From Haloactinopolyspora alba (lineage in GTDB: Bacteria; Actinomycetota; Actinomycetes; Jiangellales; Jiangellaceae): a DNA stretch of 64,000 nucleotides. The position numbers and the translations under genes were made by a program. The notes beneath the pieces are model-generated. The model was not told the origin of the DNA and ran no database searches. It saw nothing but the letters and a program-made list of their open reading frames with translations. Each line of letters opens with the position of its first letter. Positions within the stretch are counted from its first letter, which is position 1. Below are positions 44,819 through 49,286 of the stretch, piece after piece. The stretch covers positions 1 through 64,000 of the forward strand of contig NZ_PYGE01000012.1 of NCBI RefSeq assembly GCF_003014555.1, given 5' to 3'.

Positions 44819-45211
44819 ATGGGACCGACGGCAACGGACACCGCGACGGGTACGCCGCCGCGGTTCCGCACCTTCACCGAAGACGACCGACTTCCCGAGC
44901 CGCTACCCGAGCCGACCCGGGACGAGATGCGACTCGAGATCGTGATGGCCGCCCTCAGTGATCCGTTGCGGCTGTTCATCGTGCGCAAGCTGCTGCTCGA
45001 GGCCGAGCGGATCGACCACCCCTGCGGGTGGTTCGGACTGGACCGGCCGAAGTCGTCGCTGACACACCACTTCCGCACGTTGCGCGACGCCGGGCTCATC
45101 CGGCAGCGGCAGTACGGCCTGACGCGGGGCAACCAGCTGCGTGTCGAAGACCTCGAGGCCCGGTTCCCTGGGCTGCTGCGGTTGATCGCCGACTGGCGGC
45201 CGCATGCCTGA
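44819..45211 (+). CDS. ArsR-type winged-helix regulator
   Basis: 130 residues. IVMAALSDPLRLFIVRKLLL, KSSLTHHFRTLRDAGLIRQRQYG form an ArsR-like winged helix. The N-terminal 40 residues are an acidic, Thr/Pro-rich extension. An AAGGAGGAG ribosome site precedes the ATG. It should bind the operators at 44757 and control the divergent MFS gene and itself. Confidence 0.85.
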   Translation: MGPTATDTATGTPPRFRTFTEDDRLPEPLPEPTRDEMRLEIVMAALSDPLRLFIVRKLLLEAERIDHPCGWFGLDRPKSSLTHHFRTLRDAGLIRQRQYGLTRGNQLRVEDLEARFPGLLRLIADWRPHA

Positions 45212-45310
45212 CGTCTGCGTGGTGACCGGTGGCCGGCGCGCCGTGCTCGGCCCCGACCCGGAGTCGCGGTGACACGCGGCGGCGTCGTGCGTGGCTAGAG
45301 AACGGCGGCG

Positions 45311-45712
45311 ATGGTGGCGGGCGCCGCGCTGGTGGTGGCGGCGGCCGGGCTGCTCGACGGCGACGGGTGGAGCGCAGTCGTGATCGCCGCGGCGATGGTC
45401 GTGTTCGCATGGACGCTGTCGCCGGCGTTCTTCCCGCGGGGCGTCCCGTTCGAGCAGGCACGCGACATCGCGTCCGCCCGGGGTGTCCCGCTGATCCTCT
45501 GGCGTCCGGGATGCACCTACTGCATGCGTCTTCGGATGGCGCTGGCGTCGGGCGCGCGGCGGGTCATGTGGGTGAACATCTGGGACGACGATGCGGCGCG
45601 ATTCGTCCGGTCGGTGAACTCCGGCAACGAGACCGTGCCCACCGTCGTCGTCGGCGGGCAGGCGCACACGAACCCGAGTCCGCGGTGGGTGCGCCTGCAG
45701 CTGTTCCGGTGA
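45311..45712 (+). CDS. membrane-anchored glutaredoxin-like protein
   Basis: 133 residues. Two N-terminal membrane helices (about 2-16 and 22-36) precede a thioredoxin-fold domain with the active site WRPGCTYCMRLR (CxxC near 68-71) and the cis-Pro in NETVPTVVV. It resembles actinobacterial mycoredoxin-like proteins. The TGA stop lies within the terminator arm at 45710. Confidence 0.8.
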   Translation: MVAGAALVVAAAGLLDGDGWSAVVIAAAMVVFAWTLSPAFFPRGVPFEQARDIASARGVPLILWRPGCTYCMRLRMALASGARRVMWVNIWDDDAARFVRSVNSGNETVPTVVVGGQAHTNPSPRWVRLQLFR

Positions 45713-45759
45713 TCATCAACGACGCACCACACCATGACCCGGCAAAACGTTGATGATCA
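45710..45759. terminator. convergent terminator that contains both stop codons
   Basis: TGATCATCAACG (45710-45721) pairs perfectly with CGTTGATGATCA (45748-45759) around a 26-base loop. The TGA of the glutaredoxin gene begins the left arm and the TGA of the ABC gene (45757-45759 on the minus strand) begins the other. An AAAA/TTTT tract flanks the right arm. Confidence 0.7.
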
Positions 45760-47562
45760 TGGGCGGTCGGGGTGGCCGTGCCACGAGTTCCAGAGCGCGG
45801 CGTACGCACCGCCGGCACGCAGGAGATCGTCGTGCGAGCCGAGTTCGACGATCCGGCCCTCCTCCATGACGGCGATCCGGTCGGCGTCGTGCGCGGTGTG
45901 CAGGCGATGTGCGATGGCGATCACGGTGCGCCCGGCCAGCACGGCAGCGAGTGAGCGTTCCACGTGCCGCGCGGACCGCGGATCGAGCACCGACGTCGCC
46001 TCGTCGAGGATTACCGTGTGCGGGTCGGCCAGAGTCAGCCGCGCCAACGCCAGCTGCTGCGCCTGCGCGGGTGACAGGGCAGTCCCGCCGGAGCCCACAC
46101 GGGCGTCCAGCCCCAGGTCCGCCGCCCAATCCCAGGCGTCGACGGCCCGCAACGCGTGCTCGACGGCGGCATCGTCCGCGTCCGGCACGGGCAGCACGAC
46201 GTTGTCGCGCAGCGAGCCGCGGAACACATGGTGCTCCTGTGTGACCAGCGTGATCTCGGTCCGCAGCTGCTCCAGTGGGAGACCGCCGACGTCGACGTCG
46301 TCGACGGTGATCGAGCCGGCACGCGGCCGGTGGACACCCGCGAGCACCCGGCCGAGAGTGGACTTGCCCGCGCCGGACGCACCCACGATCGCGAGCCGCT
46401 CGCCGGGGCCGACCTCGAGATCGACGTCGCGCAGCACGTCCACCGCGTCGCGGTAGCCGAAGCTGACACCGTGTGCGGCGATGCCCGCTCGGTCGCCGGC
46501 CGCGGAAACCGGCGTTGCCAGTACCAGCGGCGCCGAGCGCGACGGCCCTGGGAACGCCGGTCCGGTGGTGGCATCGTCGTCGCAGGTCGGCTGGTCCGGC
46601 CGGCGCACCCCGAGCAGTCGGGCGAGCGCGGCGCTGCCGAGCTGCAGCTCGTTCAGCCAGAACAGCAACGTGTCCACCGGCGTGAGCAGCTGCTGGACGT
46701 ACAGGGTCGCGGCGGTGACCGCCCCCAGCGACGCCAGCCCGTTGAGATGGAACGCACCGCCGATGACCAGTGTGGTGACCACCGGGAGCACGTACGCGGT
46801 GTCGACGATCGGCAGGAACACGGTCCGCAGCCGCATCGTGTAGCGCTCGGCCGCGTCCGCGGCTGCGATGTCGTCGTCGGCGCGGGCCCGGCGACGAGCG
46901 CCGATCCGCAGCGCCTCGACGGTGCGCGCGCCATCGGCGGTCTCGCTCAGCCCGGCCGCGATCCGCGTGTACGAGGCGTTCTCACGCAGGTACGCGTCGC
47001 GGGCACGAGCGAGGAACCAGCGGGTCGCCGCCCACAGGATCGGCACCGCGACCAGGCAGGGCAACGCCAGCAACGGTCCCAGCAGGACCAGCCCGCCGAG
47101 CGTCAGCACGATCGTCACCGCGCTGATCAGCGTCTCCGGAATCGCGTGCCGGACCGCCCGCGACAACAGGTCGACGTCGCGCGTGGTCCGGGTGACCAGA
47201 TCCCCGGTCCCGGCCCGCTCGACCGTCGACTGCGGCAGCGCGAGCACGTCGTCGACGAACTCCTCGCGCAGCTGGGCGAGCACCTTCTCGCCGAGCCGAG
47301 CGGAGGCGAGCATGGCGAAGCCTGTGAGCGCCGCCTGCGTCACGACGAACGCGCAGATCAGCACGGCGACCCGGTCGACGGTGTCCGTTCCGCGGGCGAC
47401 GTCCTCGACGAGCCTTCCGAGCAGCCACGGGACGACCAGACCGGACGCCGCGGCCAGGATGTGCAGCACCACGACGCGGCCGAGCTCGGCGGGGTGCCGC
47501 AGCGCCAGCCGGCGTGCGTGCGCCCGGGCCCGGGTGGCGGAGGCGACGGGCAGGCCGGTCAT
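45757..47562 (-). CDS. ABC exporter half with catalytic Walker motifs but degenerate signature
   Basis: 601 residues: a six-helix exporter domain (about 20-310) and a nucleotide-binding domain. Walker A is GASGAGKST (near 397), Walker B VILDEATS (near 520) and the H-loop AHR. The signature is LSPAQ (near 500) instead of LSGGQ. The start overlaps the stop of its partner (ATGA). Together they form a heterodimeric exporter in which this subunit supplies the working ATP site. Substrate unknown. Confidence 0.9.
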   Translation of the reverse strand: MTGLPVASATRARAHARRLALRHPAELGRVVVLHILAAASGLVVPWLLGRLVEDVARGTDTVDRVAVLICAFVVTQAALTGFAMLASARLGEKVLAQLREEFVDDVLALPQSTVERAGTGDLVTRTTRDVDLLSRAVRHAIPETLISAVTIVLTLGGLVLLGPLLALPCLVAVPILWAATRWFLARARDAYLRENASYTRIAAGLSETADGARTVEALRIGARRRARADDDIAAADAAERYTMRLRTVFLPIVDTAYVLPVVTTLVIGGAFHLNGLASLGAVTAATLYVQQLLTPVDTLLFWLNELQLGSAALARLLGVRRPDQPTCDDDATTGPAFPGPSRSAPLVLATPVSAAGDRAGIAAHGVSFGYRDAVDVLRDVDLEVGPGERLAIVGASGAGKSTLGRVLAGVHRPRAGSITVDDVDVGGLPLEQLRTEITLVTQEHHVFRGSLRDNVVLPVPDADDAAVEHALRAVDAWDWAADLGLDARVGSGGTALSPAQAQQLALARLTLADPHTVILDEATSVLDPRSARHVERSLAAVLAGRTVIAIAHRLHTAHDADRIAVMEEGRIVELGSHDDLLRAGGAYAALWNSWHGHPDRP

Positions 47563-49286
47563 GCCGGGTCCTCCTCGCGAGCCACGACGGCTCGGTAGCG
47601 GTCGTCGGCGAGCAGTTCGGCGTGCGTGCCCTCGGCCACGGCCTTGCCGGCCTCGACGAAGACGACGTGCTCGGCGCAGTCCAGCAGGATCGGGCTGGTG
47701 GAGAAGACCACGGTCGTGCGCCTGTCGCGGGCCGCGGCCAGTCCGGCCGCGATCCGCGACTCGGTGTGGGCGTCGACGGCGCTGGTGGGTTCGACCAGGA
47801 CCAGCACCTCGGGATCGACGGTGAGGGCACGCGCCAGCCGGAGCCGCTGGCCCTGGCCACCGGACAGCTCGCGTCCGGCGTCGGCGACGACGGTGTCCAG
47901 CCCTGCGGGCAGCCCGGCGAGGACGTCGTGCGCGGACGCCGTGCCAACGGCCCGGTGCACGACGTCCGGGACCCGTGCCGCGCGGCCGGCCGGGTCGAGC
48001 TCGACGCGCAACGAGCCCGAGAACAGGTGCGCGGCGTTGTCGACGACCAGGATGCGGCGGCGGACGTCGTCGATGTCGAGCTGACGCAGCGGCACGTCGC
48101 CGAACGTCACGTCGGAGTCGGCATAGCGGCCGATCCGGTCGGCCAGCGGCCCGGCGTCGTCGGAGAACGCGCACACGACCGCCGTCAGCCGGCCGGGCTC
48201 GATCCGCAGGCCGGAGACCGGGTCGTGGAACCCGGCACCGGCGGCGGTTGGCGGCGCGCCGGAGTCGCCGGTCGGCGATGCTCCGCCGGTGTCGTGCGGT
48301 TGCAACGAGAGCAGCGTCGTCACCCGGCGGGCGGCGACAACGCCCTTCATGACCGCTCCGGCCGCGTTGGTCAGCCGGCGCAGCGGAATCGACAGGAACG
48401 TGGCGTAACCGTAGAACGCCACGAGCTGGCCGGGGGTGAGGCGGCCGTCCAGCACGTATCGAGCGCCCTGCCACACCACGGCCGTGACCAGCAATCCGGG
48501 CAGCAGCACCTTGGCGCCGTCGAGCACCGCCTCGACGCGGGCAACCCGGACGGCGGCGCGTCGCGCCCGCTGCGACTCGCTGCGATAACCGTCGGCGAAC
48601 ATCTGCTCGCCGCCGATGCCGCGCAGGACTCGCAGACCACCGACGATGTCGACGGCGCTCGAGGTGAGCTCGGACTGGACGGCGCGCAGCCCGACCTGGC
48701 GCCGATGCAGCGGACGCAGCGTCAGCGTCGTCGCGACGACCATCACCGGCACGCCGACCAGCACGACCAGTCCCAGCTGCCACGAGGTGACCAGCATGAT
48801 CGCGGCGACCACGACGACCGCGGCCACGGCGCCCACGGCACGGGAGACGAAGGCGAGCGCGTTGCCGATCTGCCCGACGTCGGCGACACCGACGCTCATG
48901 ACCTCGCCGGCGGACACGCGCCGGGGCAGACTCGCGCCGAGTCGGGTGGCGTGGTCGGTGACGAACTGGAGCGTGCGGAAACTGCCGCCGAGGGAGGCGG
49001 TCAGCGCGCATCGGTCGTGCAGGATGCCGGTGACGGCCTGGAGGATTCCCAGCGCCAGGACGGCCCCGCCCCACAGCAACAGGGCCCGTTGGTCGCGTTC
49101 GGTGAGCCCGTCGTCGACGGCGCGGCCGATGGCCGCGGGGATCAGCGCATTCGCGACGACGCTGACGGTCGAGTAGACGACGCCCAGGGCGACGATGACG
49201 CGGTTGGCGCCGGCGAGGCGGGTGAGGTAGCTACCGGGGGACCGAAGATCTGGTTGCCCAGGGTCCGGGTCAGGAAACTGGCGCAC
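47559..49286 (-). CDS. ABC exporter half lacking a Walker A motif
   Basis: 575 residues: exporter membrane domain (about 20-310), then a nucleotide-binding domain without Walker A (the expected place near 374 reads VVCAFSDDAGPLAD). It keeps the signature LSGGQGQR (near 475) but its Walker B is LVLVEPTS, with Val for the Mg-binding Asp. GTG 49286 gives MRQFPDPDPGQPDLRS, the usual N-terminus of this family. It is probably unable to hydrolyse ATP and completes the site of its partner. Confidence 0.88.
   Translation of the reverse strand: MRQFPDPDPGQPDLRSPGSYLTRLAGANRVIVALGVVYSTVSVVANALIPAAIGRAVDDGLTERDQRALLLWGGAVLALGILQAVTGILHDRCALTASLGGSFRTLQFVTDHATRLGASLPRRVSAGEVMSVGVADVGQIGNALAFVSRAVGAVAAVVVVAAIMLVTSWQLGLVVLVGVPVMVVATTLTLRPLHRRQVGLRAVQSELTSSAVDIVGGLRVLRGIGGEQMFADGYRSESQRARRAAVRVARVEAVLDGAKVLLPGLLVTAVVWQGARYVLDGRLTPGQLVAFYGYATFLSIPLRRLTNAAGAVMKGVVAARRVTTLLSLQPHDTGGASPTGDSGAPPTAAGAGFHDPVSGLRIEPGRLTAVVCAFSDDAGPLADRIGRYADSDVTFGDVPLRQLDIDDVRRRILVVDNAAHLFSGSLRVELDPAGRAARVPDVVHRAVGTASAHDVLAGLPAGLDTVVADAGRELSGGQGQRLRLARALTVDPEVLVLVEPTSAVDAHTESRIAAGLAAARDRRTTVVFSTSPILLDCAEHVVFVEAGKAVAEGTHAELLADDRYRAVVAREEDPA

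Follow-up and report, generated by a model that had tools for sequence, protein, structure and literature searches.

Among the closest described heterodimeric ATP-binding cassette (ABC) exporters, MsRv1273c/Rv1272c carries ATP in both of its sites (PMC12038006, in the part available) and TmrAB occludes two ATP (available part of PMC7205462). According to PMC7756269, the ATP resting in a degenerate site would work as a hinge, and a gained function would have preserved the sequence of the site. Here, we describe a pair of adjacent genes of the actinobacterium Haloactinopolyspora alba, located in a stretch of 64,000 nucleotides (contig NZ_PYGE01000012.1, positions 1 to 64,000; this whole stretch is called the window), which encodes two unlike half-exporters, subunits A and B. 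Subunit A has no Walker A motif, a state that is not confined to this pair and marks a branch of actinobacterial exporters. Judged from sequence, the window pair probably forms an obligate heterodimer and acts as a type IV ABC exporter with only one ATP site.

The best structural matches of A and B are MsRv1273c/Rv1272c and TM287/288, which show the same split into degenerate-side and catalytic-side chains (PMC12038006, in part). However, the degenerate-side chain of MsRv1273c/Rv1272c keeps Walker A and the A-loop Tyr and binds ATP, according to the same partial source, while window A is devoid of both motifs. In the yeast exporter Pdr5, of the PDR/ABCG type, changes affect every motif of one site, Walker A and the partner signature among them, as in the window pair. 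Unlike the latter, Pdr5 shows a single change of the Walker A Lys, carries the nucleotide-binding domain (NBD) before the transmembrane domain (TMD) and is a full-length chain (PMC7756269, in part). A Pdr5-type exporter was rejected, the window chains being half-size with the TMD first.

The Gene Pair and Its Motifs

Subunit A (575 aa; reverse strand, 47559..49286) starts with a GTG codon, and its stop overlaps the start of subunit B (601 aa; reverse strand, 45757..47562) in an ATGA. In both proteins the TMD precedes the NBD and both domains score above the Pfam cut-off, as in half-transporters of type IV exporters: ABC_membrane at 3e-32 and ABC_tran at 3.7e-08 in A, and 4.6e-28 and 3e-26, respectively, in B. 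In A, the ABC_tran match does not begin until profile position 42, past the P-loop. This weak and partial NBD match in A-type subunits is explained by the loss of Walker A from that half.

Alignment of the two subunits places CAFSDDAG of A (residues 372–379; 48150..48173) opposite the intact Walker A of B, GASGAGKS (46360..46383). The Q-loop Gln of A is replaced by Asn417 (48036..48038) and the H-loop His by Thr530 (47697..47699), both checked at the codon level, and the A-loop aromatic residue is also absent. The Walker B motif of A, VLVLVEPTSAVD (47790..47807), has Val in place of Asp but keeps the catalytic Glu. The ABC signature of A is an intact LSGGQ (47853..47867, codons checked), and the D-loop Asp505 is retained (47772..47774). 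Conversely, B combines an intact Walker B with the catalytic Glu (46000..46017) with a degenerate signature, LSPAQ (46063..46077); its nucleotide-binding half-site reads GASGAGKST, VTQE, VILDEATSVLD and IAHR. A keeps what it would give to a shared site and has lost the elements for holding ATP of its own, and B shows mostly the reverse.

The first-pass annotation of this locus, made from the letters alone, had noticed the missing Walker A, the Val for the Walker B Asp and the LSGGQ of A, together with the intact Walker A/B and the LSPAQ of B. All these features are borne out by translation, alignment and codons, and the losses of the Q-loop Gln and H-loop His go beyond those it had listed. A hidden Walker A, which it had considered as a possible objection, is not there: the pattern G....GK[ST] occurs nowhere in subunit A. 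Its view that the pair lies beyond the usual degenerate-site exporters fits the available sections of PMC7756269, in which the Walker A changes mentioned are single Lys replacements (to Cys in Pdr5, to Arg in ABCG5/G8).

CydDC was rejected as an identity for the pair, the NCBIfam equivalog scores being under the cut-off for A (CydC 144.6 vs. 329.05; CydD 137 vs. 435) and for B (CydC 187.4; CydD 215).

Conservation of the Walker-A-Less State

A search for relatives with patterns derived from A alone returned 45 loci, comprising 39 clear relatives, all titled as actinobacteria, and six weak generic ABC matches. The relatives include Kribbella, Nocardioides, Mumia, Leifsonia, Microbacterium, Agrococcus, Tetrasphaera/Nostocoides, Streptomyces, Virgisporangium and metagenome-assembled genomes of Acidimicrobiales. 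Of 396 genomes drawn from the phylum, 21 matched the A profile with 450 bits or more, a 22nd (G421) had such a match divided into two pieces, and the next-best genome reached 391 bits. Frames of at least 400 aa were pooled from the loci, duplicates over a 200-aa core were removed and proteins longer than 480 aa were kept. This gave 91 A-type (window included) and 80 B-type proteins, 13 A and 13 B proteins of a sister clade, and, for comparison, 12 (cA) and 14 (cB) halves nearest a canonical pair. One of 92 A-type (L039), 10 of 90 B-type and four of 18 canonical cB proteins were dropped as truncated; one cA row (L044), a distant transporter from another phylum, has motifs that align poorly.

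The Walker A pattern is found in none of the 91 A-type proteins, none of which is therefore a degenerate half with a retained Walker A of the TM287/288 kind, vs. all 80 B-type proteins. The sister clade shows the same split (0/13 vs. 13/13), and the canonical halves all carry the motif (12/12 and 14/14). A sequencing error, the other objection raised in the first-pass annotation, can be ruled out as the cause by the absence of the pattern from all of the A-type and sister-clade A proteins. GK[ST] is seen in a single A-type protein (L082, position 512 of 564), late in the NBD and off the P-loop. The 91 A-type proteins also lack, without exception, the Walker A Lys, the Q-loop Gln, the H-loop His and the A-loop aromatic residue (a gap in 90, Ser in one), and all of them retain SGGQ and the D-loop Asp. 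Their Walker B Asp column reads Val in 64, Asp in 12, Ile in 12, and Ala, Gln and Pro in one each.

The B-type proteins are uniform in the elements that hold nucleotide. The A-loop Tyr, Walker A and the Q-loop Gln are present in 80 of 80, and the Walker B Asp and Glu and the H-loop His in all 53 sequences reaching that far; in the other 27, the locus ends before Walker B. None of the 80 has SGGQ, which is replaced by LTPAQ (33), LSPAQ (15) or other forms. By this census, the pair consists of two unlike halves with one consensus and one degenerate site, and a dimer is predicted from it. The earlier proposal of one complete site and one in which both contributions are destroyed is thereby supported, motif by motif, across the family. 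The recurrence of this arrangement in many actinobacteria suggests that the pair is not damaged but works as a pump with a single ATP site.

As a control, 17 of the 19 ABC_membrane matches in the window genome carry Walker A; the two without it are window A and a paralogue on contig C8. The latter belongs to a second, divergent Walker-A-less pair (L122 and L140; G000 contig C8, ~182900–186500), 43.6% (A) and 55.2% (B) identical to the window pair. Loci of this second-copy type (L031, L032, L037, L038, L132, L137, L140) often lie near related genes for IMP dehydrogenase, a GMC oxidoreductase and an aldehyde dehydrogenase, which suggests an old fixed location. In six Streptomyces-like genomes (G246, G214, G386, G039, G235, G181; loci L088–L092, L128, L135), the gene immediately upstream of the Walker-A-less pair encodes a canonical half (GSTGAGKS, ISAGQ); G386 and G181 show both canonical halves, making four consecutive half-exporters.

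Selection, Gene Pairing and Origin

Subunit A is under purifying selection. The dN of each region was compared with the dS of the whole gene across the 190 pairs formed by 20 A genes from the Kribbella group, which include one record titled Streptomyces. The median dN/dS was 0.169 for the TMD and 0.160 for the NBD, falling to 0.027 from the signature to the D-loop. In 88 of 88 loci with 1300 bases or more beyond A, the next frame downstream is of the B type (four loci had less sequence). In the sister clade B directly follows A in 11 of 13, and a large non-ribosomal peptide synthetase (NRPS) frame lies between them in the other two. Over 67 loci, the pairwise identities of A and B are correlated with r = 0.976, a value that includes shared species history, the highest of 500 shuffles being 0.18.

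These data bear on the possibility that A is decaying or non-functional and that B works as a homodimer, which would agree with the loss of nearly all cis nucleotide-binding motifs from A. Purifying selection on A, the constant adjacency of the two genes and the retention of SGGQ and the D-loop Asp in every A-type protein all speak against it. Moreover, a B homodimer would carry two broken signatures, and we regard this explanation as very improbable.

The origin of the state was addressed with a tree on TMD columns only, which keeps the motif columns from driving it, using 93 rows sampled from 223. The tree was built by a quick method and rooted at the midpoint, and it carries the caveat that some of the long canonical branches come together. 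One clade unites A with sister A (support 94, not starred) and another unites B with sister B (99, starred), and each of the four groups falls on one side of a branch with a support of at least 97. The simplest reading would be that Walker A was lost once, on the A-type stem, after one site of the heterodimer had already degenerated. Such a milder degenerate state is seen in the canonical pairs examined, with DD at Walker B in 11 of 12 cA and LSAGE or ISAGQ in nine of 14 cB halves.

Structure Models and Residual Nucleotide Binding

Single-chain AlphaFold models were obtained for A (mean predicted local distance difference test score, pLDDT, 81.5; predicted template modelling score, pTM, 0.57) and B (76.8 and 0.50, respectively). 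In the A model, a strand at 367–372 is followed by a helix from 375, and the P-loop turn is absent. In the B model, a strand at 389–394 leads through a five-residue loop to a helix from Lys400. Among PDB structures, A is closest to chain A of MsRv1273c/72c and to 3qf4_A (TM287), and B to chain B of MsRv1273c/72c, followed by 5mkk_A (TmrAB) and 3qf4_B (TM288). The matches of A may be read as degenerate-side chains and those of B as catalytic-side chains. Sequence searches against solved structures do not discriminate the kind of exporter, their first-ranked match being P-glycoprotein or another full-length ABCB-type transporter.

These folds raise the alternative of an ordinary degenerate-site exporter, in which A would bind a non-hydrolysed ATP through a non-canonical pocket and use it as a hinge, as in TM287/288, TmrAB and CFTR. 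The nearest folds are indeed degenerate-site exporters, the degenerate site of MsRv1273c/72c binds ATP (PMC12038006, in part), and the catalytic Glu persists in most A-type proteins. On the other side, the A-loop aromatic residue, the Walker A Lys and the Q- and H-loop residues are gone from 91 of 91 A-type proteins, the P-loop turn is absent from the predicted structure of A, and the signature of B is broken too. Taken together, binding of a second ATP by A appears unlikely.

Several observations weigh against the single-site exporter that we favour. The catalytic Glu is found in 85 of 91 A-type proteins (Asp in the other six) although a dead half-site would not need it, and the Walker B Asp is still present in 12 of 91. 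The D-loop Asp of B-type proteins persists in 51 of 53 although it would serve the dead site. The former Walker A region of A has a median dN/dS of 0.217, a weaker constraint than that of the NBD overall (0.160), and the overall fit of the B model to its PDB matches is poor (TM ~0.5). Finally, in the ordinary heterodimer TetAB(60), resistance disappeared when the Walker A stretch was deleted from either half (PMC5138185), so that the loss seen here must be compensated in some way.

Walker-A-Less Relatives: TetAB and the Sister Clade

TetAB, encoded by adjacent tetA and tetB genes on Corynebacterium striatum plasmid pTP10, shows the same arrangement as the window pair. TetA (513 aa; L156:4566–6104) has no Walker A, the P-loop stretch being a gap in the alignment, and keeps LSGGQ, as does window A, whereas TetB has GTSGAGKS and a broken signature, as do the B-type halves. 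The closest rows to TetB are those of the sister clade (49–55% over the best segments), and its D-loop reads ATAEAG; TetA is only 24–28% identical to the closest A-type rows. TetA is annotated as a tetracycline efflux ABC subunit, and a resistance predictor assigns nearly the same stretch to a major facilitator superfamily (MFS) pump. The resistance function of the pTP10 TetAB is taken from its annotation.

The window pair is not TetAB itself, falling below the cut-offs of NCBIfam NF000506 (A, 90.2 vs. 1025) and NF000103 (B, 138.2 vs. 999). The TetA model NF000506 had no match at E 1e-60 in 392 genomes, and in 14 control genomes it matched only in Corynebacterium glutamicum, below the cut-off. 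No description of a Walker-A-less exporter half was found among the matches listed in the open-licence literature; the original TetAB paper, reportedly of 1999, may note it. TetAB and StrVW are presumably members of family TC 3.A.1.119. This family bears the name Drug/Siderophore Exporter-3 (PMC3924187, in part), and the available parts of PMC8304765 and PMC6804068 hold nothing on the motifs of TetA or StrV.

The sister clade differs from the window family in the D-loop of B, where Gly replaces Asp in 12 of the 12 proteins reaching it, one more being cut (L106–L114, L143–L152); printed examples read ATAEAG. A Tsukamurella sister B added later (L157) has ATADAD and keeps the Asp. It is as if the decay of the second site had gone one step further in this clade.

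An iron or siderophore neighbourhood surrounds 10 of 14 sister-clade pairs. For nine of them, blast detected relatives of FecCD permeases, binding proteins, ornithine monooxygenase and NRPS, using queries that were taken from loci of the same set and checked with Pfam. The tenth lies on a Tsukamurella plasmid, beside isochorismate genes by annotation. No such relatives were seen beside the other four of the 14 pairs (L143, L145, L148, L149). In G386 the genes run ornithine monooxygenase, FecCD, ATPase, binding protein, B, NRPS, A; in G059 a block of B, a 3652-aa NRPS and A has the same relatives on its flanks. This order matches that of the coelichelin cluster, whose exporter halves are named CchG and CchI. 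These coelichelin-type Streptomyces halves, a Walker-A-less A-type and a B-type half flanking the 3652-aa NRPS, differ from the window pair in belonging to a separate sister clade, in the lost D-loop Asp of B and in the adjacent siderophore genes.

The D-loop changes raise another alternative, namely that the pair is an ATP-gated facilitator or sensor, in which one ATP toggles conformation without strict coupling. One site lost would mean one ATP fewer than the two occluded per stroke in TmrAB (PMC7205462, in part), and D-loop mutants turn TAP and ABCB9 into facilitators (accessible sections of PMC7756269), while in the sister clade Gly occupies this very position of B. However, in the window family the D-loop Asp is present in A and in most B proteins, and both the siderophore and iron genes beside most of the sister clade and the annotation of TetAB as a tetracycline efflux system point to real export. 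Uncoupled gating is therefore improbable as an account of the window pair, and coupled export remains the favoured reading.

Genomic Neighbourhood and Possible Role

The window pair has as neighbours, by Pfam, an MFS protein, a short-chain dehydrogenase/reductase, a methyltransferase, a glutaredoxin-like protein and one protein without a match. The last two are encoded downstream of the pair on the opposite strand (window 44819–45712); the small Pfam-unmatched protein looks like a winged-helix regulator by eye.

Siderophore export was rejected for the window pair, which has no siderophore genes among its neighbours. In the window family, relatives of FecCD or binding proteins were found in none of 52 loci and NRPS in one of 52, with flanks of ~9 kb in 14 of the loci and of ~6 kb or less in the other 38. 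Some Streptomyces-like members lie beside P450, methyltransferase, NRPS or polyketide synthase genes. By analogy, the window pair likely exports a small molecule or a peptide. The lanthipeptide exporter type (RamAB/AmfAB) was also rejected, as the ABC pairs beside LanC-like genes of ~870–890 aa (L154, L155) keep Walker A.

Proposed Mechanism and Biological Meaning

In the proposed mechanism, B would supply Walker A, the A-loop, the Q-loop, Walker B and the H-loop of the active site, and A would close it with its LSGGQ and D-loop. A mirror-image site presumably cannot form, with A devoid of nucleotide-holding elements and the signature of B broken. The NBD of A would have become a pseudo-NBD, acting as a lid and an activator for the ATP of B, and the second interface would be held through protein contact instead of ATP. 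The binding and hydrolysis of one ATP at the site of B would then drive the inward-to-outward cycle, exporting a small molecule or peptide.

The pair is thus best described as a variant of the degenerate-site heterodimeric exporter with what appears, from its motifs, to be a conserved single-site design. More broadly, we lean towards the view that an ancient branch of type IV exporters in the Actinomycetota, comprising the window family, the siderophore exporters and TetAB, abolished one ATP site, leaving it unable to bind any nucleotide, and works as a single-ATP pump in which protein contacts replace the hinge ATP.

A conserved lineage in which one half has no Walker A at all is difficult to reconcile with the need for a second ATP. 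If the proposal is true, these exporters would be a natural counter-example to models needing a tightly bound ATP in the degenerate site. A lineage that lacks one Walker A and yet is under selection is a candidate single-ATP exporter, which lets one ask whether NBD closure and transport need two nucleotides.

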